From contig JAOBWH010000166.1 in assembly GCA_025463265.1 (NCBI GenBank), forward strand, positions 1-48,800: a stretch of DNA of 48,800 nt. The letters are read 5' to 3'. Below, in pieces: positions 10,397 through 47,177 of this stretch. The stretch is from Ilumatobacteraceae bacterium. GTDB taxonomy: Bacteria; Actinomycetota; Acidimicrobiia; Acidimicrobiales; Iamiaceae. A model generated the notes under the pieces. That model made no database searches. It was not told the DNA's origin and worked only from the letters and a program-made list of their open reading frames with translations. Made by a program: the position numbers and the translations under genes. Each line of letters opens with the position of its first letter. The first letter of the stretch is position 1.

Positions 10397-10849
10397 CTAC
10401 CGGGCGTGCTGGTACGGGCGCGGCCGGCGGCCGCGGAGCTGGTCGGCGAGCTCCTCCCAGACCCACTCCATCAGCTGGATCACCTGGGGATCGCTGTCGA
10501 GGAGGAGCGCGCCGCGCCGGCCGAGCTGGCGGACCTGCACCAGCCGCACCTGCATGCCGGCGAGGAGCGACGCCTGGTTCGCGGTGAGCGCGCCGCTCAG
10601 GTGCAGCGTGCCGTCGTCGCGCTCGGTGATCTCGGCGGCGCGGAACGCGTCGCCGATCTCCTCGATGTCGGGGACGAGCCCCGAGGCGATGTCGGCCAGC
10701 TCGGTGCTGACGGCCCGCCCCTGGCTCTGCGAGACGAGCACCAGCTGGCACTCCCGCAGGACGTCGTCGAGGTACACCACCATGTGCCGGAACGTCGCCG
10801 GGGGGACGCGGTCCAGGTCGACCGGCAGCACCGCAGCCCGTTCGGTCAC
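10397..10849 (-). CDS. Unrecognised protein coupled to ATP-binding regulator
   Basis: A 150-residue, mostly helical protein with no family I can name. It contains 'FRHMVVYLDDVLREC' and a basic C-terminal end (RGRRPRPYQHAR). The GTG start at 10849 overlaps the stop of the ATP-binding protein gene by four bases, so production of the two proteins is coupled. Genes in this position next to RsbW-like kinases often encode a binding partner or substrate; that it is the partner here is inference. It shows no STAS fold signature and no obvious phospho-acceptor motif. The longer frame to 10879 is less likely because it would overlap the neighbour further. Confidence 0.75.
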   Translation of the reverse strand: MTERAAVLPVDLDRVPPATFRHMVVYLDDVLRECQLVLVSQSQGRAVSTELADIASGLVPDIEEIGDAFRAAEITERDDGTLHLSGALTANQASLLAGMQVRLVQVRQLGRRGALLLDSDPQVIQLMEWVWEELADQLRGRRPRPYQHAR

Positions 10850-11229
10850 GGGACCGCAGGAAGGTCGAGCTCGAACCACACCCGCTTGCCGCCCCTGGGC
10901 TCCGGGTCGACCCCGTGCGCCGCGCTGAGGCCGTCGACGAGCTGCATCCCCCGCCCCGACTGGGCGAGCGGATCGGTGCGCTCGCGCACGCCGGGCAGAC
11001 GGTCGCTCCCGTCCTGCACCTCGACCCGGATCCGACCCGTGGTCGCGACGATGCTCAGGCAGCAGGCGGTCCGGGCGTGGAGCACGACGTTGCTCACCAG
11101 CTCGCTCACCAGCAGGGCCATCGTGTCGGCCAGCTCGGAGGCGCCGACCTGATCGAGCACGTCCACGCTCCAGCGGCGAGCGAGGGCCACGCTCGCCGGT
11201 GTGGGGGCGAGCTCGATCGAATCCGACAT
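10846..11229 (-). CDS. ATP-binding anti-sigma regulatory protein (RsbW/HATPase_c type)
   Basis: A 127-residue single-domain HATPase_c protein of the RsbW/SpoIIAB class. The N box is intact (E43-x3-N47 in 'VSELVSNVVLHA'), the G1-like D73-G follows in 'VQDGSD', and a Gly-rich lid is seen at about 92-94 (SGRGMQLVDGL). Such proteins bind and restrain sigma factors or act as Ser/Thr kinases on STAS antagonists. The ATG at 11229 is chosen over the GTG/ATG at 11271 because the domain begins there. GGTT-N16-GGGTAC lies immediately upstream, predicting transcription from about 11234 by a SigB/SigF-type sigma, such as the one at 40300. It is first in a two-gene operon. Confidence 0.87.
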   Translation of the reverse strand: MSDSIELAPTPASVALARRWSVDVLDQVGASELADTMALLVSELVSNVVLHARTACCLSIVATTGRIRVEVQDGSDRLPGVRERTDPLAQSGRGMQLVDGLSAAHGVDPEPRGGKRVWFELDLPAVP

Positions 11230-11240
11230 CGGCGGCGACC

Positions 11241-11266
11241 GTACCCCGTGGGGCACGCGCTCAACC
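11241..11266 (-). promoter_or_regulatory. Predicted SigB/SigF-type promoter for the ATP-binding regulator
   Basis: On the minus strand GGTT (11266-11263) is followed after exactly 16 bases by GGGTAC (11246-11241). This fits the actinobacterial SigB/SigF form GNNT/GGTT-N14-17-GGGTA. The start codon lies about 11 bases beyond the -10 element, so the leader would be a few bases at most. Confidence 0.6.
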
Positions 11267-11383
11267 GGCATCTCGCGCGTCCCCCCGCCGGTCTCGCCAC
11301 CGCCTGCGTGCGCCCCGACGCCAACGGTGGCGGATCACCTGGACAGAACGTCCGGGTGGTCGGTCGGCGGTACCCTCCGCGGG

Positions 11384-12253
11384 GTGACCGAGACTGCCCG
11401 CGAAGGGATCGGATGGACCCGGGTGACGCTCACCGTCGGCGGCGCCACCGGACCCACCGACGCCGCCGCCGAGTTCGGGGCTGCGGTGCTGTGGGGAGCC
11501 GGGGCGGCCGGCGTCGAGGAACGCGACAGCGCCGAGGACGACGGCCTGGTGCTCCTCGGCGGCTTCGCCGATCCGGCCGACGCCGCCCGTGCGGTGGCCC
11601 GCGCCGCCGAGCTGGGCCTGGTCGCCTCGATGGAGCCCATCACCGACGACGGGCTCGACGCCTGGCGCGAGTGGGCGGTGGCCGAGCGGGCCGGGCGGTT
11701 CTGGATCACGCCACCGTGGGTCGAGGCACCCGCCATCGGCGCCGGCGAGCAGATCCTCTGGATCGACCCCGGGCGCACCTTCGGCTCCGGCTCGCACCCC
11801 ACCACCCGTCTCGTGCTCGCCCTCCTCGACGACCTGGTCTCGCCGGGCGCCACCGTGCTCGACGTCGGCTGCGGGAGCGGGGTCCTCGCCATCGGTGCGG
11901 CCCTGTGCGGCGCCGCCACGGCGGTGGCCACCGACATCGACCCGGCCTCCCCCGGCGTGGTGGCGGCCAACGCCGACCGCAACCAGGTGGCCCACCTGGT
12001 TCGGACCACCACGGATCCGGTGGCGGTGCTGGCCGCTCGCGGCGAGCGGTACGACCTCGTGCTCGCCAACCTGCTGGCCCCGGTCATCGCCGAGCTCGGA
12101 GCCGACCTGGTGAGGAGCACGGCGCCCGGCGGGGCCCTGGTGATCTCGGGCCTCCTCGCCGACCGGTGGGAGGCCGCCCTGCCTGCGGTCGCACCGCTCG
12201 CCGCCCGCCGCGTGGCCAGCGAGGACGGTTGGGTGGCGGTCCTGCTCCGGTAG
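11384..12253 (+). CDS. prmA: Ribosomal protein L11 methyltransferase family (PrmA-like)
   Basis: A 289-residue class I SAM-dependent methyltransferase. The SAM-binding motif I is 'VLDVGCGSGVLAIGA', preceded by 'DPGRTFGSGSHPTTRLVL', the hallmark PrmA segment, and followed by the NLL motif in 'YDLVLANLLAPVI', where NPPY-like substrate contacts lie. The N-terminal 90 residues match the PrmA recognition domain. PrmA methylates ribosomal protein L11 in the cytoplasm. GTG at 11384 is chosen because a TACCCT box (11371-11376) lies 7 bases upstream with no ribosome-binding site, suggesting leaderless translation. Followed closely by a hypothetical gene in the same direction. Confidence 0.9.
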   Translation: MTETAREGIGWTRVTLTVGGATGPTDAAAEFGAAVLWGAGAAGVEERDSAEDDGLVLLGGFADPADAARAVARAAELGLVASMEPITDDGLDAWREWAVAERAGRFWITPPWVEAPAIGAGEQILWIDPGRTFGSGSHPTTRLVLALLDDLVSPGATVLDVGCGSGVLAIGAALCGAATAVATDIDPASPGVVAANADRNQVAHLVRTTTDPVAVLAARGERYDLVLANLLAPVIAELGADLVRSTAPGGALVISGLLADRWEAALPAVAPLAARRVASEDGWVAVLLR

Positions 12254-18446: not shown

Positions 18447-18623
18447 TCAGAGGTCCGCGGGACCGCCTTCGTCCGGCGAGGAGTCCTCCAGGGCGTCGCC
18501 GCCCTCGTCGCCCGCGAATCCGACCGTCCCGGTCTCGTCGCCGGCACCCGGTGACCCTTCGTCGCCGGCGTTCGGCGCGTCGTCCGTCTCGTCGGCGTCG
18601 TCGGCCGGCTTGAAGAACCCCAT
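18447..18623 (-). CDS. Small acidic protein
   Basis: A 58-residue protein dominated by Asp, Glu, Gly and Ala after 'MGFFKPADD', with no fold I recognise; probably disordered. A GAGAGGAAG ribosome-binding site lies just before the ATG. A GGGTAC element (18709 to 18704) with GGTT 18 bases upstream lies about 80 bases before the start and resembles a SigB/SigF promoter, though the spacer is two bases long. The much longer frame in this phase is a shadow of the regulator gene on the other strand. Confidence 0.6.
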   Translation of the reverse strand: MGFFKPADDADETDDAPNAGDEGSPGAGDETGTVGFAGDEGGDALEDSSPDEGGPADL

Positions 18624-18703
18624 CGTGCTTCCTCTCGTTCTGCGGCCGGGCGCTCCAGCCATCGTGATGGCGACTCTGCAGCAGCCTGACCCCACGGTCA
18701 TGA

Positions 18704-18731
18704 GTACCCACTGCTCAATCGCTCCAGAACC
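18704..18731 (-). promoter_or_regulatory. Possible SigB/SigF-type promoter for the small acidic protein
   Basis: Minus-strand GGTT (18731-18728), an 18-base spacer and GGGTAC (18709-18704). The -10 element is perfect but the spacer is longer than the 14-17 bases usual for this class, so support is weaker than for the other sites. Confidence 0.35.
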
Positions 18732-18783
18732 CCGCACGTCGCCGGTTCGGCCGCAAGGCCAGGTCCGGGTACCGTGCCGATTC

Positions 18784-21405
18784 GTGGCACAGCTGACGAA
18801 TCCCTGGCCGCTCACCCGGCGGGAAGGCGAGATCGAGGCGTTCGCGGCCGCGCTCGCCCAGGACGGGACCAACCTGGTGGTGCTGTACGGGCCCGCCGGC
18901 GTGGGCAAGTCCCGCCTCGCCGACGCCATGGTCGATTCGGCGGAGCGGCACGGCCGCCTCACCGCCCGCGTCACGGGCAGCGCCGCCGCCGCTCTCCTGC
19001 CGCTCGGCGCTCTGGCCCCCGTCCTCCCCCACGACCTCGATGCCACCGCCAGCGCCCGTGATCTGTTCGAGCGCACGCGGTCGGGCCTGCAGTCGTTGGG
19101 CGGCGAGGGCCGGCTGGTGCTCCTGGTGGACGACGCGCACCTGCTCGACACGTCGTCGGCCGTCCTGCTCACCCAGCTCATCGACGCCGGGGCCGTGTTC
19201 GTGGTCGCGACCATCCGCGAGGGCGAGGTGGTCCCCGACGCCGTCGCCGGGTGGTGGCGCAGCGAGCGCGCCGTGCGCGTCGACCTGAAGGACCTCGACC
19301 GGGCGACGACCGCCGACGTGCTGCGGCTCGCGCTCGGCGGCGAGGTCGGCGCCGACACGGTCCGACGGCTCCACGATGCGAGCGGCGGCAACCCGCTCCT
19401 GCTGCGGGAGCTGGTCATCCAGTCCCTCGGCGCCGACCGCCTCCGCGACGATTCGGGCACGTGGCGCCTGGTGGGCCCGATCCCGCCGAGCCAGCGGTTG
19501 AGCGAGCTGTTCGAGGTGCGCCTGGGCGGGATCCACGAGGACGCCCGCCACGTGCTCGAGCAGCTGGCCCTGTGCGCGCCGCTCGGGCCGGCCGAGCTCA
19601 CCGGGACCAGCACCGACGCGGACCTCGAGGAGCTGGAGCGGGCCGGGCTCATCCACGTGGTCCTCGACGACCACCGCCAGCAGCTCACCGTCGCCCACCC
19701 CCTCTACGGCGAGGCCCTGCGGGCGAGCCTCCCCGTGCTGCGGCGCCGGGCCATCCTGCTGGCGGCGGCGGAGCGGGTCGAGGAGCTCGGTGCCCGTCGG
19801 CGCGAGGACCCGCGCCGCATCGCCACGTGGCGCCTCGACGCCGGCGGCTCGCCCGACCCGGCCCTCCTGCTCCAGGCCGCCACGGTCGCCCGGTACGCCC
19901 ACGACTTCGCCGAGGTCCGGCGACTCGCCGAGGTCCTGCTGCGCACCACCCCGTCGGCCGAGGCCTCGCTGCTGCTGGGCGAGGCGCACTACGAGCTCGG
20001 CCACTTCGACGAGTCCGAGGCCGTGCTGGCCGCCCCGATGCCCGAGGGCACGCCGGTCGACGTCCTCACCCGGCAGGCCACGCTCCGCACCAAGAACCTC
20101 CAGTGGGGCCTGTGCGACTGGTCGGCGGCGATGCAGGTGGTCGACGACGCGTTCGAGGCCATCGGCCCCGAAGCCGGCATCGACATCGTCGCCGAGAAGG
20201 GATCGGTGCTGCTGTTCTCCGGGCAGCCACAGGCGGCGATCGACCTGTTCGCCACCATCGACCAGCGCACCGATCGCACCTCGGTCCTCATCGCGCTGGT
20301 CGAGGCCCCGGCGCTCGCCGCGGTGGGCCAGACGGCCAAGGCGATCGAGGTGGCGGTGGCCGGCTTCGCCGTGCACAGCGCGATGGAGGACCCGCAGGCC
20401 CTCGCCCACCCCGGCACCCACTTCGTGAACCAGGCGTTCGCCATGGTGGAGGCGGGCCGCCTCGACGAGGCCGACGAGCTGGCCGGCATCGGCTACGAGG
20501 TCGCCGTCGCCGACGCGGTCCCCATCGCCCAGATCTGGTTCGCCATGATGCTCGGCAAGTCCACCGGCCTCCGGGGCCGGATGGACGAGTCCCTCCGCTG
20601 GTACCAGGAGGGTGCCTCGACCGCCCGCCTGCACGGCTTCCGCGGACCGCTGTCGGGTGCGCTCGCCGGGCTGGCGATGGCCCAGGCCATGCTCGGCCGC
20701 TCGTCGGAGTCGGCGGCCTCCATCGAGGAGTACCGGACGCTGCCGCCGTTCTCGTTCTTCGGCCACGACCACGCCCTCGGCATCGCCTGGTCGCTGTGGG
20801 CAAACGGCGACCCGCAGGGCGCCCGGACCACGCTGCTGGCGGAGGCCGAGCTGGCGTTCGCGGACCACCACAACGGGTCGGCCAGCTGGCTGTGGCACGA
20901 CGCGTCGCGCCTCGGCGCACGCGGCATCGCCGACAAGCTCGCGGGGGTGGCCGCCAGCGGCGACAGCGCGGTGGTGGCGGCACGCGCCGCCCACGTGGCG
21001 GCGATCGAGGCCGGCGACGCGGACCAGCTCATCGCCGCCGCCGATGCGTTCGAAGCGCTGGGTGCCATCTTGTTGGCGGCGGAGGCGGCGTCCGACGCGT
21101 CGAGCGAGCTGCGACGGGCGGGGGACCAGCGCCGGGGCGCGGCACTGGCCAACCGGTCGAGGCAGCTGATGGAGCGCTGCCCCGGGGTGCGGACGCCTGC
21201 GCTCGCCCCCGCCGACGTCGCCGTGCCGCTGAGCAACCGGGAGCGGGAGGTGGCCTCGCTCGCCGGGAGCGGGCTCACCAGCCAGGAGATCGCCGACCGG
21301 CTGTTCCTGTCGATCCGCACCGTCGACAACCACCTCCAGAAGGCCTACGCCAAGCTCGGCGTCAACAAGCGCGACCAGCTCGCCGCCGCCCTCGGCGAAG
21401 CCTGA
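18784..21405 (+). CDS. Large ATP-binding LuxR-family transcriptional regulator (LAL/MalT-like)
   Basis: An 873-residue regulator. An AAA/STAND ATPase domain occupies the N-terminal third: Walker A 'GPAGVGKS' at about 36-43 and Walker B 'LVLLVDDAHLLD'. A long helical repeat region (TPR-like) follows. The C-terminal 60 residues are a LuxR helix-turn-helix ('LSNREREVASLAGSGLTSQ', then 'DRLFLSIRTVDNHLQKAYAKLGV'). Such proteins activate transcription on ligand and ATP binding. GTG at 18784 is chosen because the ATPase homology begins there and GGGTAC lies 12 bases upstream (18767-18772), suggesting a leaderless start; an ATG at 18700 would add 28 residues without homology. Target unknown; the adjacent acidic gene or SDR operon are candidates. 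Confidence 0.85.
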   Translation: MAQLTNPWPLTRREGEIEAFAAALAQDGTNLVVLYGPAGVGKSRLADAMVDSAERHGRLTARVTGSAAAALLPLGALAPVLPHDLDATASARDLFERTRSGLQSLGGEGRLVLLVDDAHLLDTSSAVLLTQLIDAGAVFVVATIREGEVVPDAVAGWWRSERAVRVDLKDLDRATTADVLRLALGGEVGADTVRRLHDASGGNPLLLRELVIQSLGADRLRDDSGTWRLVGPIPPSQRLSELFEVRLGGIHEDARHVLEQLALCAPLGPAELTGTSTDADLEELERAGLIHVVLDDHRQQLTVAHPLYGEALRASLPVLRRRAILLAAAERVEELGARRREDPRRIATWRLDAGGSPDPALLLQAATVARYAHDFAEVRRLAEVLLRTTPSAEASLLLGEAHYELGHFDESEAVLAAPMPEGTPVDVLTRQATLRTKNLQWGLCDWSAAMQVVDDAFEAIGPEAGIDIVAEKGSVLLFSGQPQAAIDLFATIDQRTDRTSVLIALVEAPALAAVGQTAKAIEVAVAGFAVHSAMEDPQALAHPGTHFVNQAFAMVEAGRLDEADELAGIGYEVAVADAVPIAQIWFAMMLGKSTGLRGRMDESLRWYQEGASTARLHGFRGPLSGALAGLAMAQAMLGRSSESAASIEEYRTLPPFSFFGHDHALGIAWSLWANGDPQGARTTLLAEAELAFADHHNGSASWLWHDASRLGARGIADKLAGVAASGDSAVVAARAAHVAAIEAGDADQLIAAADAFEALGAILLAAEAASDASSELRRAGDQRRGAALANRSRQLMERCPGVRTPALAPADVAVPLSNREREVASLAGSGLTSQEIADRLFLSIRTVDNHLQKAYAKLGVNKRDQLAAALGEA

Positions 21406-35241: not shown

Positions 35242-35820
35242 ATGACGAGCCCCACCACGCCCCCGCCGCCCGGGTCGCCGGGGCCACCCGTGCCCCCTGG
35301 TGGCGACGCTCCCTTCGACTACCGGCCGTGGCTTCCCGCCATCGGCCTCGGCGTGGTGCTGATCCTGCTCGTCGCGTTCCTGGTGCTCCGGTCCGACGGC
35401 GACGACGACACCGCGCAGACCACCACCTCGACCACGTCGTCCACCACCTCGACGTCCACCTCGACCACCACCAGCAGCACCACCACCACGAGCAGCACCA
35501 CGACGCCGCCCACCACCGCACCGCCCACCACCGCCCCGCCCACGACGGCACCGGCCACCACCGCGCCGCCCACCACCGCCCCGCCCACCACGGCGCCCTC
35601 GAACCCGGAACAGGCCGCGCTCATCTCGCGCTGCGCCGACGGCGACCAGTTCGCCTGCTACGAGGTGGGGCGCCTGGGCCTGACCCCTCCGGCGTCGGTC
35701 AAGAACCCGCAGCGCTGGCGCGGCCGGTCCGATGACGAGGTGGCCACGGCGTGCCAGACCGACCTCGACCTGACCGCCTGCTACGTCGCGGGTACCCGCG
35801 GCCTCACCCTCGGCGATTGA
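35242..35820 (+). CDS. Membrane-anchored Thr/Pro-rich protein with Cys-rich C-terminal domain
   Basis: A 192-residue protein: a Pro-rich N-terminus, one membrane helix at about 33-49, a Thr/Ser-rich stretch (57-89), six PTTAP repeats (90-119) and a C-terminal domain with C131, C139, C171 and C180. The pattern 'CADGDQFACYEVG' and 'CQTDLDLTACYVAG' resembles Sel1/Hcp-type half-repeats with paired Cys. The Thr/Pro linker would span the cell wall and place the Cys domain outside. A TACCCT box (35229-35234) lies seven bases before the ATG, suggesting a leaderless mRNA. Confidence 0.75.
   Translation: MTSPTTPPPPGSPGPPVPPGGDAPFDYRPWLPAIGLGVVLILLVAFLVLRSDGDDDTAQTTTSTTSSTTSTSTSTTTSSTTTTSSTTTPPTTAPPTTAPPTTAPATTAPPTTAPPTTAPSNPEQAALISRCADGDQFACYEVGRLGLTPPASVKNPQRWRGRSDDEVATACQTDLDLTACYVAGTRGLTLGD
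35509..35598 (+). repeat. Six 15-bp repeats encoding PTTAP
   Basis: Six tandem 15-base units in frame encode Pro-Thr-Thr-Ala-Pro, one with an Ala replacing the first Pro. They form the wall-spanning linker of the surrounding protein. Units differ mainly at third codon positions. Confidence 0.8.
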
Positions 35821-35848: not shown

Positions 35849-36163
35849 ATGACCATCGGGGCTCCCCACTTCAGCGTCCAGATCGACCCGGGGTCCGAGC
35901 CGCTTCGGGTGATCGCCGATGGCGAGCTCGATGCGGCCTCGGCTGCCACGCTCGCGGAGGCGCTCGCCGAAGCGCCGGTTCCCGCTTCGGGCGTCGCGCT
36001 CGACCTGTCGGGCGTGTCGTTCATCGACTCGTCCGGCCTGCGGGTGATCGCGGCCGAGGTGCAGCGGGCCGAGACCGCCGATCGGCCCTTCACCGTGTCG
36101 GCGGCCAGTGACGCCGTCCGTCGCATCTTCGAGATGACGGGGCTCACCAGCCTCCTCTCCTAG
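35849..36163 (+). CDS. STAS-domain anti-sigma factor antagonist (RsbV type)
   Basis: A 104-residue single STAS domain. 'GELDAASAATL' and 'LDLSGVSFIDSSGLRVI' are the family motifs, with S61 the likely phosphorylated residue. In partner switching, the dephosphorylated STAS protein binds the anti-sigma factor and frees sigma. TACGCT (35837-35842) lies six bases before the ATG, suggesting a leaderless transcript independent of GGGTA promoters. It stands 86 bases before a PP2C phosphatase gene that could dephosphorylate it. Confidence 0.92.
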   Translation: MTIGAPHFSVQIDPGSEPLRVIADGELDAASAATLAEALAEAPVPASGVALDLSGVSFIDSSGLRVIAAEVQRAETADRPFTVSAASDAVRRIFEMTGLTSLLS

Positions 36164-36249
36164 GCTGGCGGAGCGGGCATGGGTGAAGCTGAATCCACCC
36201 GCTCGGGGGGTGTGCTCGTGGCCTCGCTCAGCCAGCATGCACGATCGAC

Positions 36250-37458
36250 ATGACCGAGCCGCTCTCGTCCCCCTGGGCACCGCCTGTGCACGTGTCGCCG
36301 CGCGACGCGCCCCACCTCGTGGTGCTGGTCGAGGACGACCCCGGTGACACCATCCTCTTCGAGGAGGCCATCGCCGACGCGGACCCGGAGCTGCAGGTCC
36401 GCTGCGTCGCCCGGACCGCCGACCTGCTCGGGATGACCGGGCCCGAGGAGGTCTCCTGCGTCGTGCTCGACCTCGGCCTCCCCGGCGTCACCGGCTTCGA
36501 GGCGCTCGATGAGATCGTCGCCGCCGTCCCCACCGTCGCCATCGTCGTGCTCACAGGGTGGGGCGATGCGCAGGCGGGCACCGAGGCGCTCGCCCGCGGC
36601 GCGCAGGACTACCTCGTCAAGGGCGACGCCGACGGTCGCACGATCGCCCGCTCGATCCGCTTCGCGGTGGAGCGCAAGCGCTCCCAGCTGGCGGCCACCG
36701 CCCTCGCCGAGGCCCACATGCGCCAGGCCGAGCAGCACCGGCTGGAGCGGGCCCTGCTCGTCGACCCGGCGGTGGTCCGCCCGGACGTCACGTGGGAGGC
36801 CCGTTACATCGCCGCCCGGTCGGGCGTGGTCAGCGGCGACTTCTTCGACGGTCTCGAGCTGGCCGACGGCACCTTGCGCCTCGTGATCGGCGACGTGGCC
36901 GGCCACGGCACCGACGAGGCGGCGCTGGGGGTGAGCCTGCGGGCGGGGTGGCGCTCCTTGGTCCTGGCCGGCCTCGATGCGGGCGAGGTGCTCGTCGCGC
37001 TCGAGGACCTGCTGGTGAGCGAGCGCCCGAGCGGCGACGAGTTCGCCACGGTGTGCGATCTCACGATCTCGGCCGACCTGCGGACCGTCTGCGTGCGCAA
37101 CGCCGGCCACCCGGCGCCGATCATCACCGGCCGGGGACCGCTGGCCGACACCGCCGGCCGGTCGCCGCTCGGGATCCGCCTCGACGACGCGGACCTGCCG
37201 GGGACCGAACACCACCTCGACGGGGCGTGGAGCCTGGTGACCTACACCGACGGCTTGTTCGAGGTGCGCGCCGAGGACGGGTCGATCCTCGCAGTGGAGG
37301 AGGTGCCCGCTGCGGTCGACGCCGCCACGACCGACGGCGTGATCGACGCCGACGCCCTGATCGACGTGTTCGCCCGCCGAGCCGTCGACGGGTGGCGCGA
37401 CGACGTCGCGCTCCTCGTGGTGAGCTGCCGTCCCCCGCACGCGGCCGGCCCAGCGTGA
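36250..37458 (+). CDS. Receiver-PP2C phosphatase (RsbU/SpoIIE-type response regulator)
   Basis: A 402-residue protein. Residues 20-145 are a receiver domain with acidic pair in 'LVEDDPGD', phosphoacceptor D74 in 'VVLDLGLPG' and conserved Lys in 'DYLVKGDADG'. A coiled linker leads to a PP2C/SpoIIE phosphatase from about 180: 'SGDFFDGLEL', 'LVIGDVAGHG', 'YTDGLFEVR' and 'WRDDVALLVV' supply metal-binding Asp residues. Phosphorylation of the receiver is expected to control dephosphorylation of STAS antagonists. The stop overlaps the histidine-kinase start (GTGA). Confidence 0.93.
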   Translation: MTEPLSSPWAPPVHVSPRDAPHLVVLVEDDPGDTILFEEAIADADPELQVRCVARTADLLGMTGPEEVSCVVLDLGLPGVTGFEALDEIVAAVPTVAIVVLTGWGDAQAGTEALARGAQDYLVKGDADGRTIARSIRFAVERKRSQLAATALAEAHMRQAEQHRLERALLVDPAVVRPDVTWEARYIAARSGVVSGDFFDGLELADGTLRLVIGDVAGHGTDEAALGVSLRAGWRSLVLAGLDAGEVLVALEDLLVSERPSGDEFATVCDLTISADLRTVCVRNAGHPAPIITGRGPLADTAGRSPLGIRLDDADLPGTEHHLDGAWSLVTYTDGLFEVRAEDGSILAVEEVPAAVDAATTDGVIDADALIDVFARRAVDGWRDDVALLVVSCRPPHAAGPA

Positions 37459-39008
37459 GCCTGGGCCGCACCAGCAGCCGTTCGCTCCGCCAGCTGTCGA
37501 CGGCCGCGTGGATCACGGCCATCGTGGCGCTCACCGTCGGCTCGGTCATCGTGTGGTTCGGGTTCGCCAGCCTCCTCGATGCCCGGGCCCGCGTGTTCGA
37601 GACGGTGGGGCCCGCCCGGATCTCGGTCCAGCAGCTGCGGGCGAGCGTGCTCGACCAGGAGACCGGCATCCGCGGCTACGTGATCACGCGCGACGACCGC
37701 CTGCTCCAGCCCTACACCGCCGGCCGGGCGTCGCAGAAGAAGATCGACCGAGAGATCCGCAGGGTGATCGACGGCGACCCCTCGGAGGCCACCGTCGTCG
37801 CCGCCCTCGACCAGGTCCAACAGGCGATGGACGACTGGCGGGACAGCGTCGCGGACCCCCTGCTCGACAGCGCGGACCAGCCCGACCTCGACGGCACGCT
37901 CATCCGCAGCACCGCGGTCTTCGACGACGTCCGGGCCGAGCTCGACGACCTCGAGGCCATCCTCCAGCGGGAGCGGGTGGTCGCCCGCACCAACCTGGAG
38001 GACACCACCTCGCGCCTGGTGGTGTCGGTGGGCGCCACGATCGCCCTCTTCGGTGCCCTCGCCTCCGGGGGCAGCTGGCTCCTCCGGCGGCGGGTCGTCG
38101 CTCCCATGGACCGGGTGATGCTGGCCGCCGACGCCGTCGCCGGCGGCAACCTCGACGTCCCCATCGAGGTCCAGGGACCGGCCGAGATCGAGCGGCTCGC
38201 CCAGCGCGTCTCGGACATGCGCGACCGCATCGTGGAGGAGCTCGCCGCCGTCGAGGCGCAGCGCATCGAGCTGGCCCGACGGGCGGACGACCTGGCCCGC
38301 TCCAACGCCGATCTGGAGCAGTTCGCCTACGTGGCGTCGCACGACCTCCAGGAGCCGCTCCGCAAGGTCGCCTCGTTCTGCCAGCTCCTCGAGCAGCGCT
38401 ACGGCGACCAGCTCGACGAGCGGGGCCGGTCCTACATCGACTTCGCCGTCGACGGCGCCAAGCGGATGCAGGCGCTCATCGCCGACCTGCTCGAGTTCTC
38501 CCGCATGGGCCGCTCCACCCGCGCCTTCGTCGAGTGCGACCTCGGCGCGATGGCCGAGGAGGTGCTCGACTCCTTCGCCGATGACCTCACCGACGCCTCC
38601 GTCTCCGTCGGCGAGCTCCCCACCGTGCCCGGCGACCCGACCCTCTACCGGGCGCTGCTCCAGAACCTCGTCGGCAACGCGATCAAGTACCGCGTGCACG
38701 GCGCGCCGCCCACGATCTCGCTGAGCGCCGCCCGCGACGGTGACGTGTGGTCGTTCGCCTGCTCGGACCGGGGCATCGGCATCGAGCCCCAGTACCGTGA
38801 GCAGGTCTTCGCCGTGTTCCAGCGCCTCCACGGCCGCGGCGAGTTCGAGGGCACCGGCATCGGCCTGGCCCTCTGCAAGCGGATCGTCGAGTTCAGCGGC
38901 GGTCGGATCTGGATCGACGAGCCTGAACACGGCGCCGGCACCACCGTGCGCTGGACCCTGCCGGTCACCCCCACCCCTGCACCCACCACCCCGACGGGAC
39001 TCCGATGA
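37455..39008 (+). CDS. CHASE3-HAMP sensor histidine kinase
   Basis: A 517-residue kinase. One helix at about 14-37, an extracytoplasmic CHASE3 domain (about 40-185, with 'LDQETGIRGYVITRDDRLLQPY'), a second helix at about 190-212, HAMP, a coiled linker, and a HisKA domain with H296 in 'VASHDLQEPLRKVASF'. The ATPase has N box 'LLQNLVGNAIKY', G1 'CSDRGIGIEPQYREQVF' and G2 'EGTGIGLALCKRIV'. The 'FQRLHGRGEFEGTG' segment is typical of phytochrome-type kinases paired with Rcp1-like receivers. Coupled on both sides: its start overlaps the PP2C gene and its stop overlaps the receiver gene. Confidence 0.93.
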   Translation: MSLGRTSSRSLRQLSTAAWITAIVALTVGSVIVWFGFASLLDARARVFETVGPARISVQQLRASVLDQETGIRGYVITRDDRLLQPYTAGRASQKKIDREIRRVIDGDPSEATVVAALDQVQQAMDDWRDSVADPLLDSADQPDLDGTLIRSTAVFDDVRAELDDLEAILQRERVVARTNLEDTTSRLVVSVGATIALFGALASGGSWLLRRRVVAPMDRVMLAADAVAGGNLDVPIEVQGPAEIERLAQRVSDMRDRIVEELAAVEAQRIELARRADDLARSNADLEQFAYVASHDLQEPLRKVASFCQLLEQRYGDQLDERGRSYIDFAVDGAKRMQALIADLLEFSRMGRSTRAFVECDLGAMAEEVLDSFADDLTDASVSVGELPTVPGDPTLYRALLQNLVGNAIKYRVHGAPPTISLSAARDGDVWSFACSDRGIGIEPQYREQVFAVFQRLHGRGEFEGTGIGLALCKRIVEFSGGRIWIDEPEHGAGTTVRWTLPVTPTPAPTTPTGLR

Positions 39009-39460
39009 ACCAGAACGCCATCCGCCAGCCGCTGGCGCAGGCTCGCATCCTGCTCGTCGACGACGACCCCGGTGATGTGTTGATGACCCGGGAGTCGCTG
39101 GCCGGCTCCTCCAGCCGCTGCGATGTCGCCGTGGTCGAGGACGGCGCGATGGCGCTCGACTACCTGCACAAGCGGGGGGCGTACACCGAGGCCCCGACGC
39201 CGCACCTGGTGCTGCTCGATCTCAACCTGCCCAAGGTCAGCGGCCACCAGGTCCTCGCCGAGGTGAAGGGCGACCCCGGGCTGGCGACGATCCCGGTGGT
39301 GGTGCTCAGCACGAGCGCGGCCGCGCACGACGTCGTGGCCACCTATGCGCTGCACGGCAACGCGCACGTCGCCAAGCCGGTGGACTTCCTCGAGTTCCAG
39401 GCGGTCATCCGCGGGATCGACGAGTTCTTCCTCTCCGTCGCCCAGGTCCCCGACCTCTGA
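39005..39460 (+). CDS. Single-domain response regulator (Rcp1/CheY-like)
   Basis: A 151-residue receiver with no output domain. Acidic residues D19-D21 in 'LLVDDDPGD', phosphoacceptor D72 in 'LVLLDLNLPKVSG', conserved Ser/Thr in 'VVLSTSAAAHD' and Lys in 'HVAKPVDFLEF'. The 'DLNLPKVSGHQVL' motif is typical of Rcp1-type partners of CHASE3 or phytochrome kinases. ATG overlaps the kinase stop (ATGA). It may act as a phosphate sink or as an allosteric partner of the phosphatase. Confidence 0.92.
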   Translation: MNQNAIRQPLAQARILLVDDDPGDVLMTRESLAGSSSRCDVAVVEDGAMALDYLHKRGAYTEAPTPHLVLLDLNLPKVSGHQVLAEVKGDPGLATIPVVVLSTSAAAHDVVATYALHGNAHVAKPVDFLEFQAVIRGIDEFFLSVAQVPDL

Positions 39461-39480
39461 CCTCGGAACCGCACCCCGAC

Positions 39481-39526
39481 GCGACGAGGCCCCCGTGACC
39501 GTCGAACGGTCCGGGGGCCTCGTCGC
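39481..39526. terminator. Strong bidirectional hairpin
   Basis: A perfect 15-base stem (39481-39495 with 39512-39526) encloses a second 6-base stem (39497-39502 with 39506-39511) and a three-base loop; one T is bulged. It lies between the receiver gene and the convergent csbD-like gene. No T-run follows on the plus strand. It probably ends both transcripts. Confidence 0.7.
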
Positions 39527-39542
39527 CTGGTGCGGAAGGTGA

Positions 39543-39731
39543 TCAGTCGGTGAGCTTGTCCTTGACCGAGTCGACGGCGCCGGACACCTTGTCCTTGGCG
39601 TTCTCGGCGGCCTCCTTCACGCTGGCACCGGCCTGATCGGCCTTGCCCTCGTTCTTGAGATCCCGGTCGTTGGTCAGATCGCCGGCGGCCTCTTTGATCC
39701 GGCCCTTGGCGTCATCGGCGTTGCTGCCCAT
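39543..39731 (-). CDS. CsbD family stress-response protein
   Basis: A 62-residue hydrophilic CsbD-like protein: 'DDAKGRIKEAAGDLTND' followed by Lys/Ala/Glu-rich helical repeats. In Bacillus subtilis, CsbD is a SigB-dependent general stress protein of unknown action. GAGGAG lies just before the ATG. GTAT-N16-GGGTAC lies about 70 bases upstream, matching the sigma class encoded nearby at 40300, so its control by that sigma is likely. A longer frame to 39809 lacks CsbD homology. Confidence 0.88.
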   Translation of the reverse strand: MGSNADDAKGRIKEAAGDLTNDRDLKNEGKADQAGASVKEAAENAKDKVSGAVDSVKDKLTD

Positions 39732-39799
39732 GGTGTGCTCCTCTGTTGCGGACGACGTGTTCGTCAGATGGTCGAGCAGAACTCGCTCGTGGATGATCG

Positions 39800-39825
39800 G
39801 TACCCCCACCGCTGCGGTCTGATAC
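39800..39825 (-). promoter_or_regulatory. Predicted SigB/SigF-type promoter for csbD-like gene
   Basis: Minus-strand GTAT (39825-39822), 16-base spacer, GGGTAC (39805-39800). It overlaps the divergent promoter for the anti-sigma/sigma operon. Confidence 0.6.
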
Positions 39826-39842
39826 CTGGGCAGCCCGGGTAG
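39817..39842 (+). promoter_or_regulatory. Possible SigB/SigF-type promoter for anti-sigma/sigma operon
   Basis: Plus-strand GTCT (39817-39820), 16-base spacer, GGGTAG (39837-39842). The -35 fits only GNNT and the -10 ends in G, so this is weaker than the divergent csbD site, but an autoregulated sigma operon is usual for this class. Confidence 0.45.
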
Positions 39843-39910
39843 GTGACTGTCATGTACCCCTCTCGTCCCGGCAACCCCAGGTGAGCGCGCTGCGGCGCGA
39901 GGATGGTGTC

Positions 39911-40303
39911 ATGGACGCCACCGACGCCCCTCTGATGACCCTGACCGTGCCCGCCGACGTGCGCTACTTCCGGTCGGTCCGCCTGGCCATCGGCGGCTTG
40001 GCCACCATGGTCGGCTTCGACATCGAATCGATCGACGATCTCCGGATCGGCGTCGACGAGGTGTGCGCCGCGCTGGCCGAGGCCGGCAACGGCGACGACC
40101 TCCGCATCGAGGTGCTGGCCGTGCCGGGCGAGCGCGTCCGGGTGGAGGGGACGGTCCCGCACGGCGACGATCAGCCCGACGCGGACCGGTTCGCGTTCTC
40201 GCGCCAGATCCTCTCCGTGGTGGCCGATGATCACGGCTACGCGGTCGAGGGGGGCCAGGTGTCGTGCTGGCTGGAACGCCGCCTCGCCGTCGGTGTCGCG
40301 TGA
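39911..40303 (+). CDS. Anti-sigma factor, RsbW-like ATP-binding protein with degenerate ATP site
   Basis: A 130-residue HATPase_c-type protein directly upstream of the sigma gene. The alpha helix carrying the N box reads 'DLRIGVDEVCAALAEAG': E50 is kept but the metal-coordinating Asn four residues on is Ala54, and I see no DxGxG box. Its place and GTGA overlap with sigma mark it as the likely anti-sigma factor. ATG at 39911 has GAGGAT eight bases upstream; a GTG at 39881 is also in frame but adds residues with no homology. Kinase activity on STAS proteins may be weak or lost. Confidence 0.85.
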   Translation: MDATDAPLMTLTVPADVRYFRSVRLAIGGLATMVGFDIESIDDLRIGVDEVCAALAEAGNGDDLRIEVLAVPGERVRVEGTVPHGDDQPDADRFAFSRQILSVVADDHGYAVEGGQVSCWLERRLAVGVA

Positions 40304-41082
40304 GCTCGGCCGACCGCACGCACGGCGACGCTGCTGACCTCACCGCCCGCTTCGAGGAGTACCGGCGGACCGGCAACCGGCGTCTGCGCAACGACCTGGT
40401 CACCGAGACGCTGTCCATCGCTCAGGCCTGCGCCCGGCGCTTCGCGAACCGGGGCGAGCCGCTCGCCGACCTCGAGCAGGTGGCGATGCTGGGCCTGGTG
40501 AAGGCCGTCGAGCGCTTCGACCCCAAGTTCGGCGTGCCGTTCGCCGGGTTCGCGGTGCCCACCATCACCGGCGAGCTGCGCCGGCACTTCCGAGATGCGA
40601 CGTGGGCGGTGAAGGTCCCACGCCGGGCCAAGGACCTGCACGTCCGCATCCCCGCCGTGGTGGCCGAGCTCAACGCCCAGACCGGCCGCACCCCGACCCC
40701 CGCCGAGATCGCGGAGCAGCTCGGGATCAGCATCGACGACCTGCTCGATGCGCTCGATGCGGGCGCGGCCTATCGCACCACCTCCACCGACACGACCGAA
40801 GGCGCCCTCGCCGCGAGCCACTCCACGGGCCGCAGCGAGATCAGCGACGGGCTCCCACCCGACGAGCGGGTCCTCTTGACCCAGCTGCTCGAGACGCTCG
40901 ACGAGCGCGAGCGGACCATCGTGTACCTCCGCTTCTTCGAGGACCTCAGCCAGTCCGAGATCGCCGAGCGGGTCGGGATGAGCCAGGTCCACGTGTCGCG
41001 CCTGCTGCGCCGGGCGCTGCGCGACCTGAAGGAGCTCGCCCTCCCCGACGGCGGGCTCGACGACGACGTCGACGACATCTGA
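40300..41082 (+). CDS. SigB/SigF-type RNA polymerase sigma factor
   Basis: A 260-residue sigma-70 group 3 factor. Region 2 ('NDLVTETLSIAQACARRF', 'LADLEQVAMLGLVKAVERFDP', 'FAGFAVPTITGELRRHFRD') recognises the -10 element, region 3 follows ('WAVKVPRRAKDL', 'TPAEIAEQLGIS'), and region 4 ('DERERTIVYLRFFEDLSQSE', 'EIAERVGMSQVHVSRLLRRAL') recognises the -35. These features match the SigB/SigF stress or sporulation sigma group, which uses GGTT/GNNT-N16-GGGTA promoters. GTG overlaps the anti-sigma stop. Probably the hub of the regulon described in this window. Confidence 0.94.
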   Translation: MSSADRTHGDAADLTARFEEYRRTGNRRLRNDLVTETLSIAQACARRFANRGEPLADLEQVAMLGLVKAVERFDPKFGVPFAGFAVPTITGELRRHFRDATWAVKVPRRAKDLHVRIPAVVAELNAQTGRTPTPAEIAEQLGISIDDLLDALDAGAAYRTTSTDTTEGALAASHSTGRSEISDGLPPDERVLLTQLLETLDERERTIVYLRFFEDLSQSEIAERVGMSQVHVSRLLRRALRDLKELALPDGGLDDDVDDI

Positions 41083-41100
41083 CCACCGGGCAGACGCGCA

Positions 41101-41141
41101 CCGGGGACGGTTCCGGGGGCGCAGTCCGGAACCGTCCCCGG
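41101..41141. terminator. Perfect 16-base hairpin after the sigma gene
   Basis: CCGGGGACGGTTCCGG (41101-41116) pairs perfectly with its complement at 41126-41141 around a nine-base loop. It lies between the sigma gene and the convergent NarL-type gene and probably ends both. No T-run. Confidence 0.7.
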
Positions 41142-41184
41142 CGATCGGGGGGAAGGGTCGTCAGGGCCCCATCGGGGGCCCGGC

Positions 41185-41844
41185 CTACTCGGTGAGGCCC
41201 TCGCGCCAGGCCTTGGCCACGGCCCCGGCCCGGTCGTTCACGCCCAGCTTCCGGTAGATCTGCTGGAGGTGGGTGCGGATCGTCTCCCGCCCGACGCCCA
41301 GCTCGGCGGCGGCCTCATCGACCGAACGGCCGTGGGCGACGCAGCGCAGCACCTCGGCCTCGCGGCGAGACAGGCCCAGATGGGCGCCGACCCAGCGCTG
41401 GCGCGACGTGGTGCGGGCGGCCATCACCGCCGCCTCGGTGGCCAGGCCCGGGTCGATGACGACCTCGCCGCTGGCGATGCGCTCGAGCGTGGTGACCAGC
41501 TCCGAGGTCGGGATCGACTTCAGGAGGTAGCCGCGAACGCCGGCGCGGAGGGCGGAGAAGAGGTGGCGCAGGTCGTCGGCCTCGGTGAACACGACGACGG
41601 CGAACTGCGGCTCCTGCGAGAGGACCCGGGTGACGGCATCGATGCCGGCGCCGGTGCGGCCGAAGGCGTCGATCAACATGATGTCGGCGTCGGCGCTGAT
41701 CGCCGCCTCTCGCTCGACCTCGGGATCACCGGTCGCAGAGGCCACGATCTCGATGCGGTCCGCGTACGGCGCGAGCAGCCCCTTGAGGCCTTCGATGATC
41801 AGTTCCGCATCGTTGGCGATGATCACCCGGATGGGGTCGGTCAT
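41185..41844 (-). CDS. NarL/LuxR-type response regulator
   Basis: A 219-residue regulator. Receiver domain with phosphoacceptor D59 ('DADIMLIDAFGR'), conserved Thr in 'VVVFTEADD' and Lys in 'GYLLKSIPTSEL'; only one acidic residue (D12) is present where two are usual. C-terminal LuxR helix-turn-helix: 'LSRREAEVLRCVAHGRS', then 'ELGVGRETIRTHLQQIYRKLGV'. The ATG overlaps the STAS gene stop (ATGA), so a partner-switch protein and a response regulator are made together. Its kinase may be the one at 37455, but this is inference. Confidence 0.9.
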   Translation of the reverse strand: MTDPIRVIIANDAELIIEGLKGLLAPYADRIEIVASATGDPEVEREAAISADADIMLIDAFGRTGAGIDAVTRVLSQEPQFAVVVFTEADDLRHLFSALRAGVRGYLLKSIPTSELVTTLERIASGEVVIDPGLATEAAVMAARTTSRQRWVGAHLGLSRREAEVLRCVAHGRSVDEAAAELGVGRETIRTHLQQIYRKLGVNDRAGAVAKAWREGLTE

Positions 41845-42218
41845 GGTGCTGGTTCCTTCAAGACGTCGAGTATTCCGGTGATGCCGAGGATGTTCTCCGC
41901 CATGGCCGAGGCCGTGGTGAGGCGAAGGCTCCCGCCGGCTTCGCGGAGGTCCCACATGGACTGGACCAGGACCCGGATGCCGGCCGAATCGATGAACGTC
42001 GTCCCGTCCAGGTCGAGGAGCACGTCGCGGTGCTCGACCGCATCGTCCGCCAGCGCCGTCGCCAGGCGGGGCGCGCTGGCGGCGTCGAGCTCGCCACACA
42101 CCTGCACGACCGCCTGGCGGTCCGTGGCCGTGCGGTCGATCGCGAACGGCGCCCGGAAGGATCCCGAGGACCCCGCGGTGTCGAAGGAAGATCTCGGATG
42201 GTGCTGCGTCGAGCGCAT
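41841..42218 (-). CDS. STAS-domain anti-sigma factor antagonist, second copy
   Basis: A 125-residue STAS protein with a 25-residue N-terminal extension. 'VVQVCGELDAASAPRL' and 'LLDLDGTTFIDSAGIRVL' are the motifs, S78 the likely phosphoacceptor. It differs clearly from the copy at 35849 and could connect a different input to the same anti-sigma factor. GTAT-N16-GGGTAC lies upstream, predicting positive feedback from the sigma factor. First in a two-gene operon with the NarL-type regulator. Confidence 0.9.
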   Translation of the reverse strand: MRSTQHHPRSSFDTAGSSGSFRAPFAIDRTATDRQAVVQVCGELDAASAPRLATALADDAVEHRDVLLDLDGTTFIDSAGIRVLVQSMWDLREAGGSLRLTTASAMAENILGITGILDVLKEPAP

Positions 42219-42256
42219 CGCAAATCCATCGGGGGAGCGGACAGAGGCAACGTCTC

Positions 42257-42282
42257 GTACCCCTCGCCGTTGGCGCCCATAC
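42257..42282 (-). promoter_or_regulatory. Predicted SigB/SigF-type promoter for second STAS operon
   Basis: Minus-strand GTAT (42282-42279), 16-base spacer, GGGTAC (42262-42257); the start codon is 38 bases further on. Same -35, spacer and -10 as the csbD-like promoter. Confidence 0.6.
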
Positions 42283-42315
42283 CCTGGGAGGCGGCGGGTG
42301 GCGCGTGCTCAGCGG

Positions 42316-42960
42316 TCAGACGGGGATGGCGTTCGGTGCCAGGCCGGAGGGTCCGACCGCTGGCTGATCCAGGTAGGCGAAGAACGCCGGCGCGTCGCGG
42401 CGGACGCCATCTTCGAGCAGGTGCAGATCGCCGCCGATGGCGAGCAGCTCGCGGCCCAGCAGCACCAGCGGCGGGCCGAGGACGTGGAACGGCACGCCGT
42501 ACTGCTCGGTCAGCACGTCGAAGACCCAAGGGTCGACGCCGACCACGGCGCTCTGCGCGCCCGACCGCTTGGCCTGCCGGTAGAAGGACCGGTAGAGCGC
42601 CTCGGTCACGCCGGTCGTGTCGCGCTCGACGTCGCTGTCGACCGACAGCGAGACCAGCTCGCACGCGTTGTCGGGCAGATCGACCTCGGCGGCCAGATCG
42701 ACGCCGGCGGCCTGGAGCGCGAGGCCCAGCGGCAGGTCGGCGAGGGGCCCGACGGTGGACGCAGCCATCCCGAGCGGACCATCCAGGCCGAGCGCCAGGT
42801 GGAAGGTGGTGGGTGACACCCGCCCGCTCGAGGGCGGCTCGGTGACGTCGAGGTCTGCCTCGGCCAGGATCTCCGCCTCCAAGCGCTCCGTGGCGGCGAA
42901 AGACGGGAACCCGCTGAGGGTGTACAGGGTGAACTGGGGTTCGACAGACTCGAGGAACAT
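42316..42960 (-). CDS. Unrecognised protein, possibly GNAT-like/N-acyl amino acid synthase-like
   Basis: A 214-residue soluble protein. The region 'CELVSLSVDSDVERDTTGVTEALYRSFYRQAKRSGAQSAV' (split here: a beta strand, an 'LYRSFYRQA' helix, then 'VVGVDPWVFDVLTEQYG') recalls the GNAT-like fold of N-acyl amino acid synthases and LuxI-type enzymes, with 'GVPFHVLGPP' as the later strand-turn. The resemblance is weak and from memory of the fold only. GGAAGG lies before the ATG. GGTT-N16-GGGTAA upstream is the cleanest SigB/SigF-type promoter in the block. Not assigned a function; candidate for a small-molecule output of the stress response. Confidence 0.65.
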   Translation of the reverse strand: MFLESVEPQFTLYTLSGFPSFAATERLEAEILAEADLDVTEPPSSGRVSPTTFHLALGLDGPLGMAASTVGPLADLPLGLALQAAGVDLAAEVDLPDNACELVSLSVDSDVERDTTGVTEALYRSFYRQAKRSGAQSAVVGVDPWVFDVLTEQYGVPFHVLGPPLVLLGRELLAIGGDLHLLEDGVRRDAPAFFAYLDQPAVGPSGLAPNAIPV

Positions 42961-46827: not shown

Positions 46828-47115
46828 TCAGCCAGAGGTCTTGGGGTTGGCCTTGACCGGCTGCTCGTCGTCGCTCGGCTCGACCTCGGGCGCGAGGTCA
46901 CCGTGATCGGCGCGCACGTGGAGGCTGGCCTCGTCGAGGACGTGATCGACCTCGGCGTCGGTGGCGTCCGGGTCGGGCTCCTCCAACTGGTCGAGCTTTC
47001 CCTTGGCCTCCACCCGGCGATCGGCCGTCGCCCAGCCGAGCGCTTCCTCGGCCTTGGCCACCGCCTGCTTGAAGGCGCCAGGCTTGGAGTCGTCGGGTTC
47101 GTTCTCGGCGGTCAT
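46828..47115 (-). CDS. Acidic hydrophilic protein with CsbD-like segment
   Basis: A 95-residue protein rich in Glu, Asp and Lys. The part 'ATADRRVEAKGKLDQLE' resembles the CsbD motif, while the rest is disordered-looking. GGAG precedes the ATG by about nine bases. GGCT-N16-GGGTAC lies upstream, predicting membership of the SigB/SigF regulon. I treat it as a stress-type protein by promoter and composition only. Confidence 0.72.
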   Translation of the reverse strand: MTAENEPDDSKPGAFKQAVAKAEEALGWATADRRVEAKGKLDQLEEPDPDATDAEVDHVLDEASLHVRADHGDLAPEVEPSDDEQPVKANPKTSG

Positions 47116-47151
47116 CGGAGCTGCTCCTGGGTGGTGGTGGGGTGTTCTCGG

Positions 47152-47177
47152 GTACCCGGCACCGCCGGAGCTCAGCC
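47152..47177 (-). promoter_or_regulatory. Predicted SigB/SigF-type promoter for 95-residue protein
   Basis: Minus-strand GGCT (47177-47174), 16-base spacer, GGGTAC (47157-47152). The start codon is 36 bases on. The -35 overlaps the stop of the preceding gene. Confidence 0.55.

Follow-up and report, generated by a model that had tools for sequence, protein, structure and literature searches.

A probable SigF-type partner-switching module and its predicted GGGTA promoters in an Acidimicrobiales genome

Gene content of the block

We analysed a stretch of 48,800 nucleotides (here called the window; contig C71 of a genome of 4.05 Mb that is assembled into 204 contigs) from an Ilumatobacteraceae bacterium of the order Acidimicrobiales, in which an earlier reading of the sequence, referred to below as the original prediction, had proposed a partner-switching stress module with recurrent GNNT-N16-GGGTA promoters at positions 35849-42960. 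Between 35849 and 42218, the genes are ordered STAS-1, receiver-PP2C phosphatase, CHASE3 kinase and stand-alone receiver on the plus strand, csbD on the minus strand, anti-sigma factor and sigma factor on the plus strand, and a LuxR-type regulator and STAS-2 on the minus strand. This block is probably a partner-switching module of the SigF type known from mycobacteria. A scan with Pfam and NCBIfam profiles recovered every domain that had been named for it: two STAS antagonists, a receiver-PP2C phosphatase, a CHASE3 kinase, a receiver, an anti-sigma factor and a SigB/SigF-type sigma factor. The LuxR-type regulator, 3' of STAS-2, was absent from the earlier gene list.

The sigma factor (40300..41082, plus strand) matches the SigB/SigF/SigG-family model TIGR02980 (SigBFG) over its full length and above the curated cut-off (242.7 bits versus 234.35), and has PDB matches to 8x6g, 1l0o and 8jzt_A. 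The gene for the UsfX/RsbW1-like anti-sigma factor (about 39911..40303, plus strand; the start at 39911 was read by eye, and GTG at 39881 is an alternative start) lies directly upstream and overlaps the sigma gene by 4 bases. Two genes are assigned as anti-sigma antagonists on the basis of their TIGR00377 scores and a conserved phosphoserine motif: STAS-1, of the RsfB/RsbV type (35849..36163, plus strand; PF13466, 63 bits; TIGR00377, 63.1 bits with a cut-off of 53.45; motif DSSG), and STAS-2 (41841..42218, minus strand; PF01740, 58.8 bits; TIGR00377, 65 bits with the same cut-off; motif DSAG). The frame at 35242-35820, just 5' of STAS-1, encodes a hydrophobic stretch and then a long Thr/Ser/Pro-rich repeat.

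The phosphatase (36250..37458, plus strand) joins a receiver (PF00072) to a SpoIIE/PP2C domain (PF07228) in an RsfR-like order, and both the receiver Asp and the motifs GDFFDG, GDVAGHG and TDG, which we take to be the metal ligands, can be read in it. Adjoining it is a CHASE3-HAMP-HisKA-HATPase histidine kinase with RsfS-like domain order (37455..39008, plus strand; PF05227, PF00672, PF00512, PF02518), and the stand-alone receiver (39005..39460, plus strand; PF00072) is the third gene of this phosphatase-kinase-receiver triplet. The remaining genes encode a csbD-like small protein (39543..39731, minus strand; PF05532, 55.6 bits and thus above 40) and, behind STAS-2, the LuxR/NarL-type response regulator (41185..41841, minus strand; PF00072, PF00196).

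Promoter-like sites at the locus

Four GNNT-N16-GGGTA sites, each with a 16-base spacer, were read from the DNA and found again by script. The site of csbD is GTAT-N16-GGGTAC (39825-39800, minus strand), that of the anti-sigma/sigma operon is GTCT-N16-GGGTAG (39817-39842, plus strand), and that of STAS-2 and the LuxR-type gene is again GTAT-N16-GGGTAC (42282-42257, minus strand), which ends 40 bp 5' of the ATG; a fourth candidate, GGTT-N16-GGGTAA (43019-42994, minus strand), precedes a gene for a 214-residue protein. All four agree with the original prediction, which had already called the operon site the weaker one. The csbD and anti-sigma sites diverge and overlap by 9 bp (39817-39825), so that simultaneous occupancy by two polymerases is hardly possible. 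Elsewhere in the window, at 47129-47177, two GNNT-N16/17-GGGTA matches stand face to face with overlapping -10 elements, between a short frame at 46828-47115 (minus strand) and a gene that starts at 47214 (plus strand).

The form had been attributed to the SigB/SigF factors of Streptomyces and Mycobacterium, and the available portions of two reports bear this out: the SigF consensus of Mycobacterium smegmatis is given as GTTT-N(14-19)-GGGTA (PMC4694148), and among the SigB-type promoters of Streptomyces coelicolor, which paralogous sigma factors share, some have a -35 element as loose as GNNT (PMC8346170). The sites here, located upstream of genes, fall within the SigF-type class GTTT/GNNT-N14-19-GGGTA.

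Placement and spacing of the motif

What is unusual about the motif is its placement and spacing, not its raw count. To compare spacings, we took 580 kb of the same genome outside the window, divided into 29 consecutive blocks of 20 kb; the blocks came from contigs already known to be long, not from around matches, a choice that is not fully random. The controls were 32 wrong spacings between 4 and 40, with 14 and 18 left out. Sites of the form GNNT-Nk-GGGTA were intergenic in 23 of 51 cases for k = 15-17, but in only 68 of 465 cases at the wrong spacings (Fisher, 1.2e-6), and 12 of the 51, compared with 32 of the 465, were both intergenic and within 250 bp of a same-strand start (Fisher, 4.5e-4). 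Thus, the enrichment near start codons that had been proposed as a check is found in DNA free of the window. In an overlapping sample that includes the window, the counts in the same categories (matches, intergenic, intergenic and near a start) were 39, 19 and 15, versus 128, 22 and 16 for five wrong-spacing sets.

The form GKTT-N15-17-GGGTA has 52 matches in the whole genome over three spacings (15 backwards), while the control GKTT-N2-14-GGGTA has 70 matches over 13 spacings (112 backwards). Although about 91% of the sampled DNA is called coding (by a home-made gene caller, which may miss small genes), 38 of the 48 distinct GKTT-N15-17-GGGTA sites are intergenic; 28 of these have a start on the same strand no more than 250 bp away, and 7 have none within 1 kb.

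The motif also recurs in front of particular genes. Matches to csbD number 62, in 35 of 61 genomes, and we scanned 30 of these loci, including our own, over the 250 bp upstream of the matched domain. On the sense strand the motif is present in 17 of the 30, whereas 500 shuffles gave 0.55 on average and never more than 4; on the antisense strand it is present in 4, compared with 0.65. For the switch genes of the window's own genome, we took the best 10 of 24 HATPase_c_2 matches and all 13 STAS matches, and found the motif within 300 bp in front of 8 of these 23 STAS and small kinase genes, versus 14 of 481 sampled genes (binomial, 1.7e-7). With the two STAS genes of the window removed, and its kinase still counted, the proportion is 7 of 21 (1.4e-6). 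The spacing, whole-genome GKTT and switch-gene tests share some sites.

Of the four sites, that of the 214-residue protein (42316..42960, minus strand) is the doubtful one. The GGTT and GGGTAA elements and their spacer are where the original prediction had put them, but a role as promoter is questionable: the site lies over the preceding gene's stop codon, is itself called coding, and has no counterpart within 300 bp of the start in any of 16 homologues, whose starts were extrapolated from the alignment. One homologue (L222) has a match at -304, and the closest (L208) has GGGTAC at a fitting distance from a possible -35 element that is merely GGTC. The protein, which has matches in 13 of the 61 genomes (our own included), belongs to no family by Pfam, NCBIfam or PDB match; one homologue gave GNAT (E 0.004) and FeeM (0.098), both below cut-off, and a single-sequence AlphaFold model reached a pLDDT of 34. 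Its C-terminal half may resemble LuxI/FeeM acyl synthases. The site looks like a chance match, and membership of the protein in the regulon is doubtful.

Might all four motifs be random matches in GC-rich DNA? The pattern is degenerate, with 51 matches in 580 kb, over half of them in coding DNA, and one of the four sites resembles such a match. Moreover, GNNT-N14-18-GGGTA has 525 matches in the whole genome against 1005 for the backward pattern, so that the raw count is not over-represented; by this measure the motif is no commoner than chance, while upstream of csbD it far exceeds shuffled sequence. At the block itself, 20 occurrences of GNNT-N16-GGGTA in the 580 kb give an expectation of 0.25 in 7.1 kb, where 4 are seen (Poisson 1.2e-4), a value that is soft on its own because the pattern was chosen after looking. 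The spacing-specific intergenic placement, the footprint at csbD in relatives, the enrichment at switch genes and the conservation in a syntenic relative (G008, below) all speak against chance, which we regard as extremely unlikely. That the promoter-like motif is real and recurrent in this genome is well supported.

The anti-sigma factor and separate kinases

The anti-sigma factor reads EVCAA where RsbW-type kinases have EACTN, such that the N-box Asn is replaced by Ala, and no DxGxG-like motif is in place; the combination of N-box Asn, G1 and G2 motifs that characterizes a Bacillus-type RsbW kinase is not found in it. Because the kinase box is missing, the protein falls below the cut-offs of both HATPase_c_2 (20.9 bits versus 27.4) and the RsbW model NF003144 (29.7 bits versus 145). 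By eye on the alignment, the Asn is in 0 of 32 anti-sigma factors (our own, those of 29 loci of relatives and two paralogues from our own genome). It is missing from Nocardiopsis-group sequences too (among 26 of 67 loci) and is kept in two Firmicutes sequences in a wider alignment of 19.

An AlphaFold model of the anti-sigma factor (pLDDT 92) has as its best PDB folds the UsfX/RsbW anti-SigF structures 8jzt (with SigF) and 8ih8 (with RsfB), to which its identity is 26-28%, and also RsbW and then SpoIIAB; the UsfX structures likewise lack the N-box Asn, with EVCTR in the alignment. The predicted fold closest to UsfX, the missing Asn and the gene position beside a SigF-type sigma factor all place the protein with the UsfX/RsbW1 type, and the sequence and the model together indicate that it probably has no kinase activity. 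The switch is therefore unlikely to take the Bacillus form, in which STAS-1 and STAS-2 would be phosphorylated by the anti-sigma factor itself. The resemblance of the fold to RsbW and SpoIIAB would suit that form, but the Asn that is absent here is present in canonical kinases, and RsbW1, the M. smegmatis counterpart of UsfX, did not phosphorylate RsfB in vitro, according to the available part of the report (PMC7693655); we consider a classical Bacillus-type switch very unlikely.

The STAS antagonists are probably phosphorylated by separate kinases, some of them behind the same motif. One candidate is encoded in the same window, about 25 kb from the block: a small HATPase_c_2 protein (10846..11229, minus strand; PF13581, 35.9 bits) with the intact N-box SELVSN, whose gene has a promoter-like GGTT-N16-GGGTA (11242..11266, minus strand) 13 bp 5' of it and a second match, GTCT-N15-GGGTA, at 11371-11394 within DNA called coding. 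A small HATPase_c_2 protein on contig C187 also has the N-box Asn. On contig C36, a canonical kinase (SEACTN, DHGGGFD, GGLGI) lies 3' of a STAS gene, behind GGTT-N16-GGGTAG, and has a match in 51 of 61 genomes, our own included. Among 30 loci of this kinase, the N-box is present in 29, and a gene with a STAS-like serine motif, scored by text pattern and not by domain search, stands directly before it in 27.

Conservation in relatives

In a search of 41 genomes, three close orthologues of the anti-sigma factor (58-65%) were found, in G008, G005 and G010, all of the same genus as the window genome; the remaining matches are at most 46%. A 3.4 kb contig of G008 carries receiver, anti-sigma factor, sigma factor, LuxR regulator (64% identical to that of the window) and STAS gene in the same order, with no csbD match between them, and has GTTT-N16-GGGTAG upstream of both the anti-sigma and the STAS gene. 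In G005, a PP2C-like match, STAS-1, a short frame and the anti-sigma gene follow one another, and the contig ends before a sigma gene; GACT-N16-GGGTAC lies behind STAS-1 and 326 bp 5' of the anti-sigma match, with the short frame between. This frame (L063:2552-2767) encodes about 70 hydrophilic residues. In G010, as in G008, the anti-sigma gene is directly beside the sigma gene, and nearby there is only a weak PP2C-like match (28%).

The receiver-PP2C, CHASE3 kinase and receiver triplet is present in five of six stretches of relatives examined (L232-L236), where the stand-alone receiver is 53-57% identical. In four of these five, no SigF-type match occurs in the stretch examined, and the triplet is thus tied to the window sigma by position only. 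The operon from STAS-1 to the receiver might serve another output, for example a different sigma factor, and stand beside the window sigma merely by rearrangement. This would fit with the separation of the two halves by csbD and with a script scan of the window, which found no SigF-type motif upstream of the STAS-1/phosphatase/kinase operon. The arrangements in relatives argue otherwise: the G008 receiver is directly 5' of the anti-sigma/sigma pair, G005 has the PP2C-like match and STAS-1 5' of the anti-sigma gene, and the triplet of G003 has a paralogous pair about 4 kb away. The same combination also controls SigF in M. smegmatis, as described in the portion available of PMC10950880, and we consider a separate output unlikely.

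Genes behind the motif and paralogous sigma factors

Pfam was run on 30 of the 31 genes 3' of GKTT sites (L124:7256-8638, the site of which is called coding, was left out). Five are switch genes, encoding a SigBFG-like sigma factor on contig C177, two STAS proteins and two HATPase_c_2 proteins. Others encode Ku, a UvrA-like protein, carbonic anhydrase, a Na/H exchanger, a mechanosensitive-channel helix protein, an FAD oxidoreductase with a Rieske domain, a subtilase, DUF2383 and DUF2188. Genes without an evident stress link encode luciferase-like, FMN reductase, alcohol dehydrogenase, DUF2391, OmpA, BadF-type ATPase and BrkB proteins, and five of the 30 have no Pfam match.

Seven GKTT-N15-17-GGGTA sites are clustered in 11.2 kb of C177 (G000, L110:6500-19400), where 0.13 are expected, among genes for STAS, GAF-GGDEF, Na/H exchanger, GCS2 ligase, transglycosylase-associated, CsbD-like and sigma proteins. 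We take GCS2 to be a carboxylate-amine ligase. The SigF list of M. smegmatis, in the available part of PMC4694148, includes an FAD-dependent oxidoreductase, a carboxylate-amine ligase, a transglycosylase-associated protein, RsbW and a STAS gene. The content of the regulon in our genome is predicted from the motifs.

The C177 sigma gene (18555-19355) has a GTTT-N16-GGGTA site 251 bp upstream, and its product is one of four SigB/F/G-like sigma factors that reach roughly 200 bits or higher in this genome: the window sigma and those on C102 (267 bits), C7 (202) and C177 (198), of which the first two exceed the cut-off. The GGGTA promoters may be real and yet be served mainly by these paralogues, leaving narrower targets to the window sigma. 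The motif is found upstream of csbD also in genomes for which the search gave only distant anti-sigma paralogues, and nine S. coelicolor homologues cross-recognize promoters (PMC8346170, from the part available), both of which would agree with such a division. In the syntenic G008, however, the sigma gene and the motif are retained together, the motif standing before both the sigma operon and STAS-2, and a change of reader alters the ownership of the motif, not its nature. We see the service of these promoters mainly by paralogues as a real possibility that falls short of probable; it is likely that the window sigma reads them.

Discussion

The block shares with the SigF system of M. smegmatis a kinase-box-less anti-sigma factor beside SigF, a STAS antagonist, a CHASE3 histidine kinase and a receiver-PP2C phosphatase (PMC7693655, PMC10950880), as well as a nearby DNA-binding response regulator and GTTT/GGTT-N14-19-GGGTA promoters (PMC10950880, PMC4694148). 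In the portions of these reports available, RsbW1, the anti-SigF factor, is without kinase activity and RsbW2 phosphorylates RsfB (PMC7693655), while the CHASE3 kinase RsfS and the receiver-PP2C phosphatase RsfR act on RsfB (PMC10950880); the likeness of the window proteins to RsfS/RsfR (MSMEG_6130/6131) is one of domain order. Unlike the M. smegmatis system, the window has most parts in one 6.4 kb block, flanked by two STAS genes and with an extra stand-alone receiver and csbD. It has no canonical kinase in the block (a STAS and canonical RsbW pair is on C36), and its DNA-binding regulator sits with STAS-2 and not with the histidine kinase.

STAS proteins, a Bergerat-fold anti-sigma factor and a PP2C phosphatase are common to the block and the Bacillus SigB system (RsbV/RsbW/RsbU), and the B. 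cereus RsbKY system has CHASE3 on RsbK and the receiver on RsbY (PMC10950880, available part); in contrast to both, the window anti-sigma factor is without a kinase box and the histidine kinase of the block is not a hybrid. The SigB-like promoters of S. coelicolor share the GNNT-type -35 and GGGTA-type -10 elements, but cross-recognition there was shown by experiment with nine sigma factors (PMC8346170, likewise in part), whereas the window promoters are known from sequence alone.

From the parts, the class and placement of the motif, the missing N-box and the predicted anti-sigma fold, we infer a mechanism, including who binds whom, the reading of the promoters by the window sigma rather than a paralogue, and autoregulation. 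At rest, the kinase-less anti-sigma factor (39911-40303) would hold the sigma factor (40300-41082), and STAS-1 and STAS-2 would be kept phosphorylated on the DSSG/DSAG serine by separate Bergerat-fold kinases whose genes lie in other parts of the genome. Stress would be sensed by the CHASE3 kinase (37455-39008), which would set how far the receiver domain of the PP2C phosphatase (36250-37458) is phosphorylated, with the stand-alone receiver perhaps a further phosphate acceptor. The phosphatase would remove phosphate from the STAS proteins, which, once dephosphorylated, would bind the anti-sigma factor such that the sigma factor is released. The freed sigma factor would then drive the GNNT-N15-17-GGGTA promoters of csbD, STAS-2/LuxR, its own operon, stress genes, and some antagonists and kinases. 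If it does drive its own operon, antagonists and kinases, the switch would both reinforce and limit itself. The sign of the step from kinase to phosphatase could be either, since phosphorylation of the receiver has opposite effects in the two systems described in the available part of PMC10950880: it lowers phosphatase activity in M. smegmatis and raises it in B. cereus.

Several observations weigh against a mycobacterial-type module with this wiring. In addition to the unremarkable raw count of the motif, the paralogous sigma factors with their potential for cross-recognition, the triplet with no SigF-type neighbour in four of five relatives and the STAS-1 operon with no such motif upstream, the promoter sites are predictions that go no further than sequence, and the -35 element of the sigma factor's own operon (GTCT) is weak. 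No motif was found on the gene strand upstream of the G010 anti-sigma orthologue, and the motif precedes anti-sigma genes in only 3 of 30 loci (shuffle mean 0.35), so that autoregulation is not general; we do not propose it as a common property of anti-sigma/sigma operons. Similarly, the motif precedes the pair of STAS gene and canonical kinase in 5 of 30 loci, with a shuffle mean of 0.91 and a maximum of 5, and as a conserved trait of that pair it is weak. Finally, the DNA-binding regulator of the M. smegmatis rsfR-rsfS operon has no role in SigF control, as stated in the part available of PMC10950880, and the LuxR-type gene of the window may thus have none.

We propose tentatively, as a possibility that the data do not make probable, that the switch in this lineage is a distributed and self-wired network. 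Its anti-sigma factor would have lost its kinase, and several paralogous sigma factors of the SigF type would all read one class of promoter, which would govern effectors, another sigma factor, several of the separate kinases and some antagonists. At the csbD and sigma-operon sites, whose -35 regions overlap within 9 bp, polymerase would choose between the sigma factor (with its inhibitor) and an effector. This self-wired side, with its shared overlapping promoter, is consistent with the data but not proven; the system itself is of a known kind and is a well-supported new example. The original prediction was right in its main points of observation and interpretation, with one of its four sites doubtful.

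Among the titles listed by a literature search, none dealt with a SigF-type stress regulon in Acidimicrobiia. All 32 anti-sigma factors compared from this order lack the N-box Asn, as do the Nocardiopsis-group sequences, and a separate canonical kinase is matched in 51 of 61 genomes, which suggests that the sigma-bound anti-sigma factor lost its kinase box early in the history of the phylum. The locus extends the mycobacterial arrangement, with anti-sigma factor and kinase separate and a CHASE3 kinase paired with a receiver-phosphatase, to another actinobacterial class, and it supplies a promoter pattern for regulon prediction in Acidimicrobiia.

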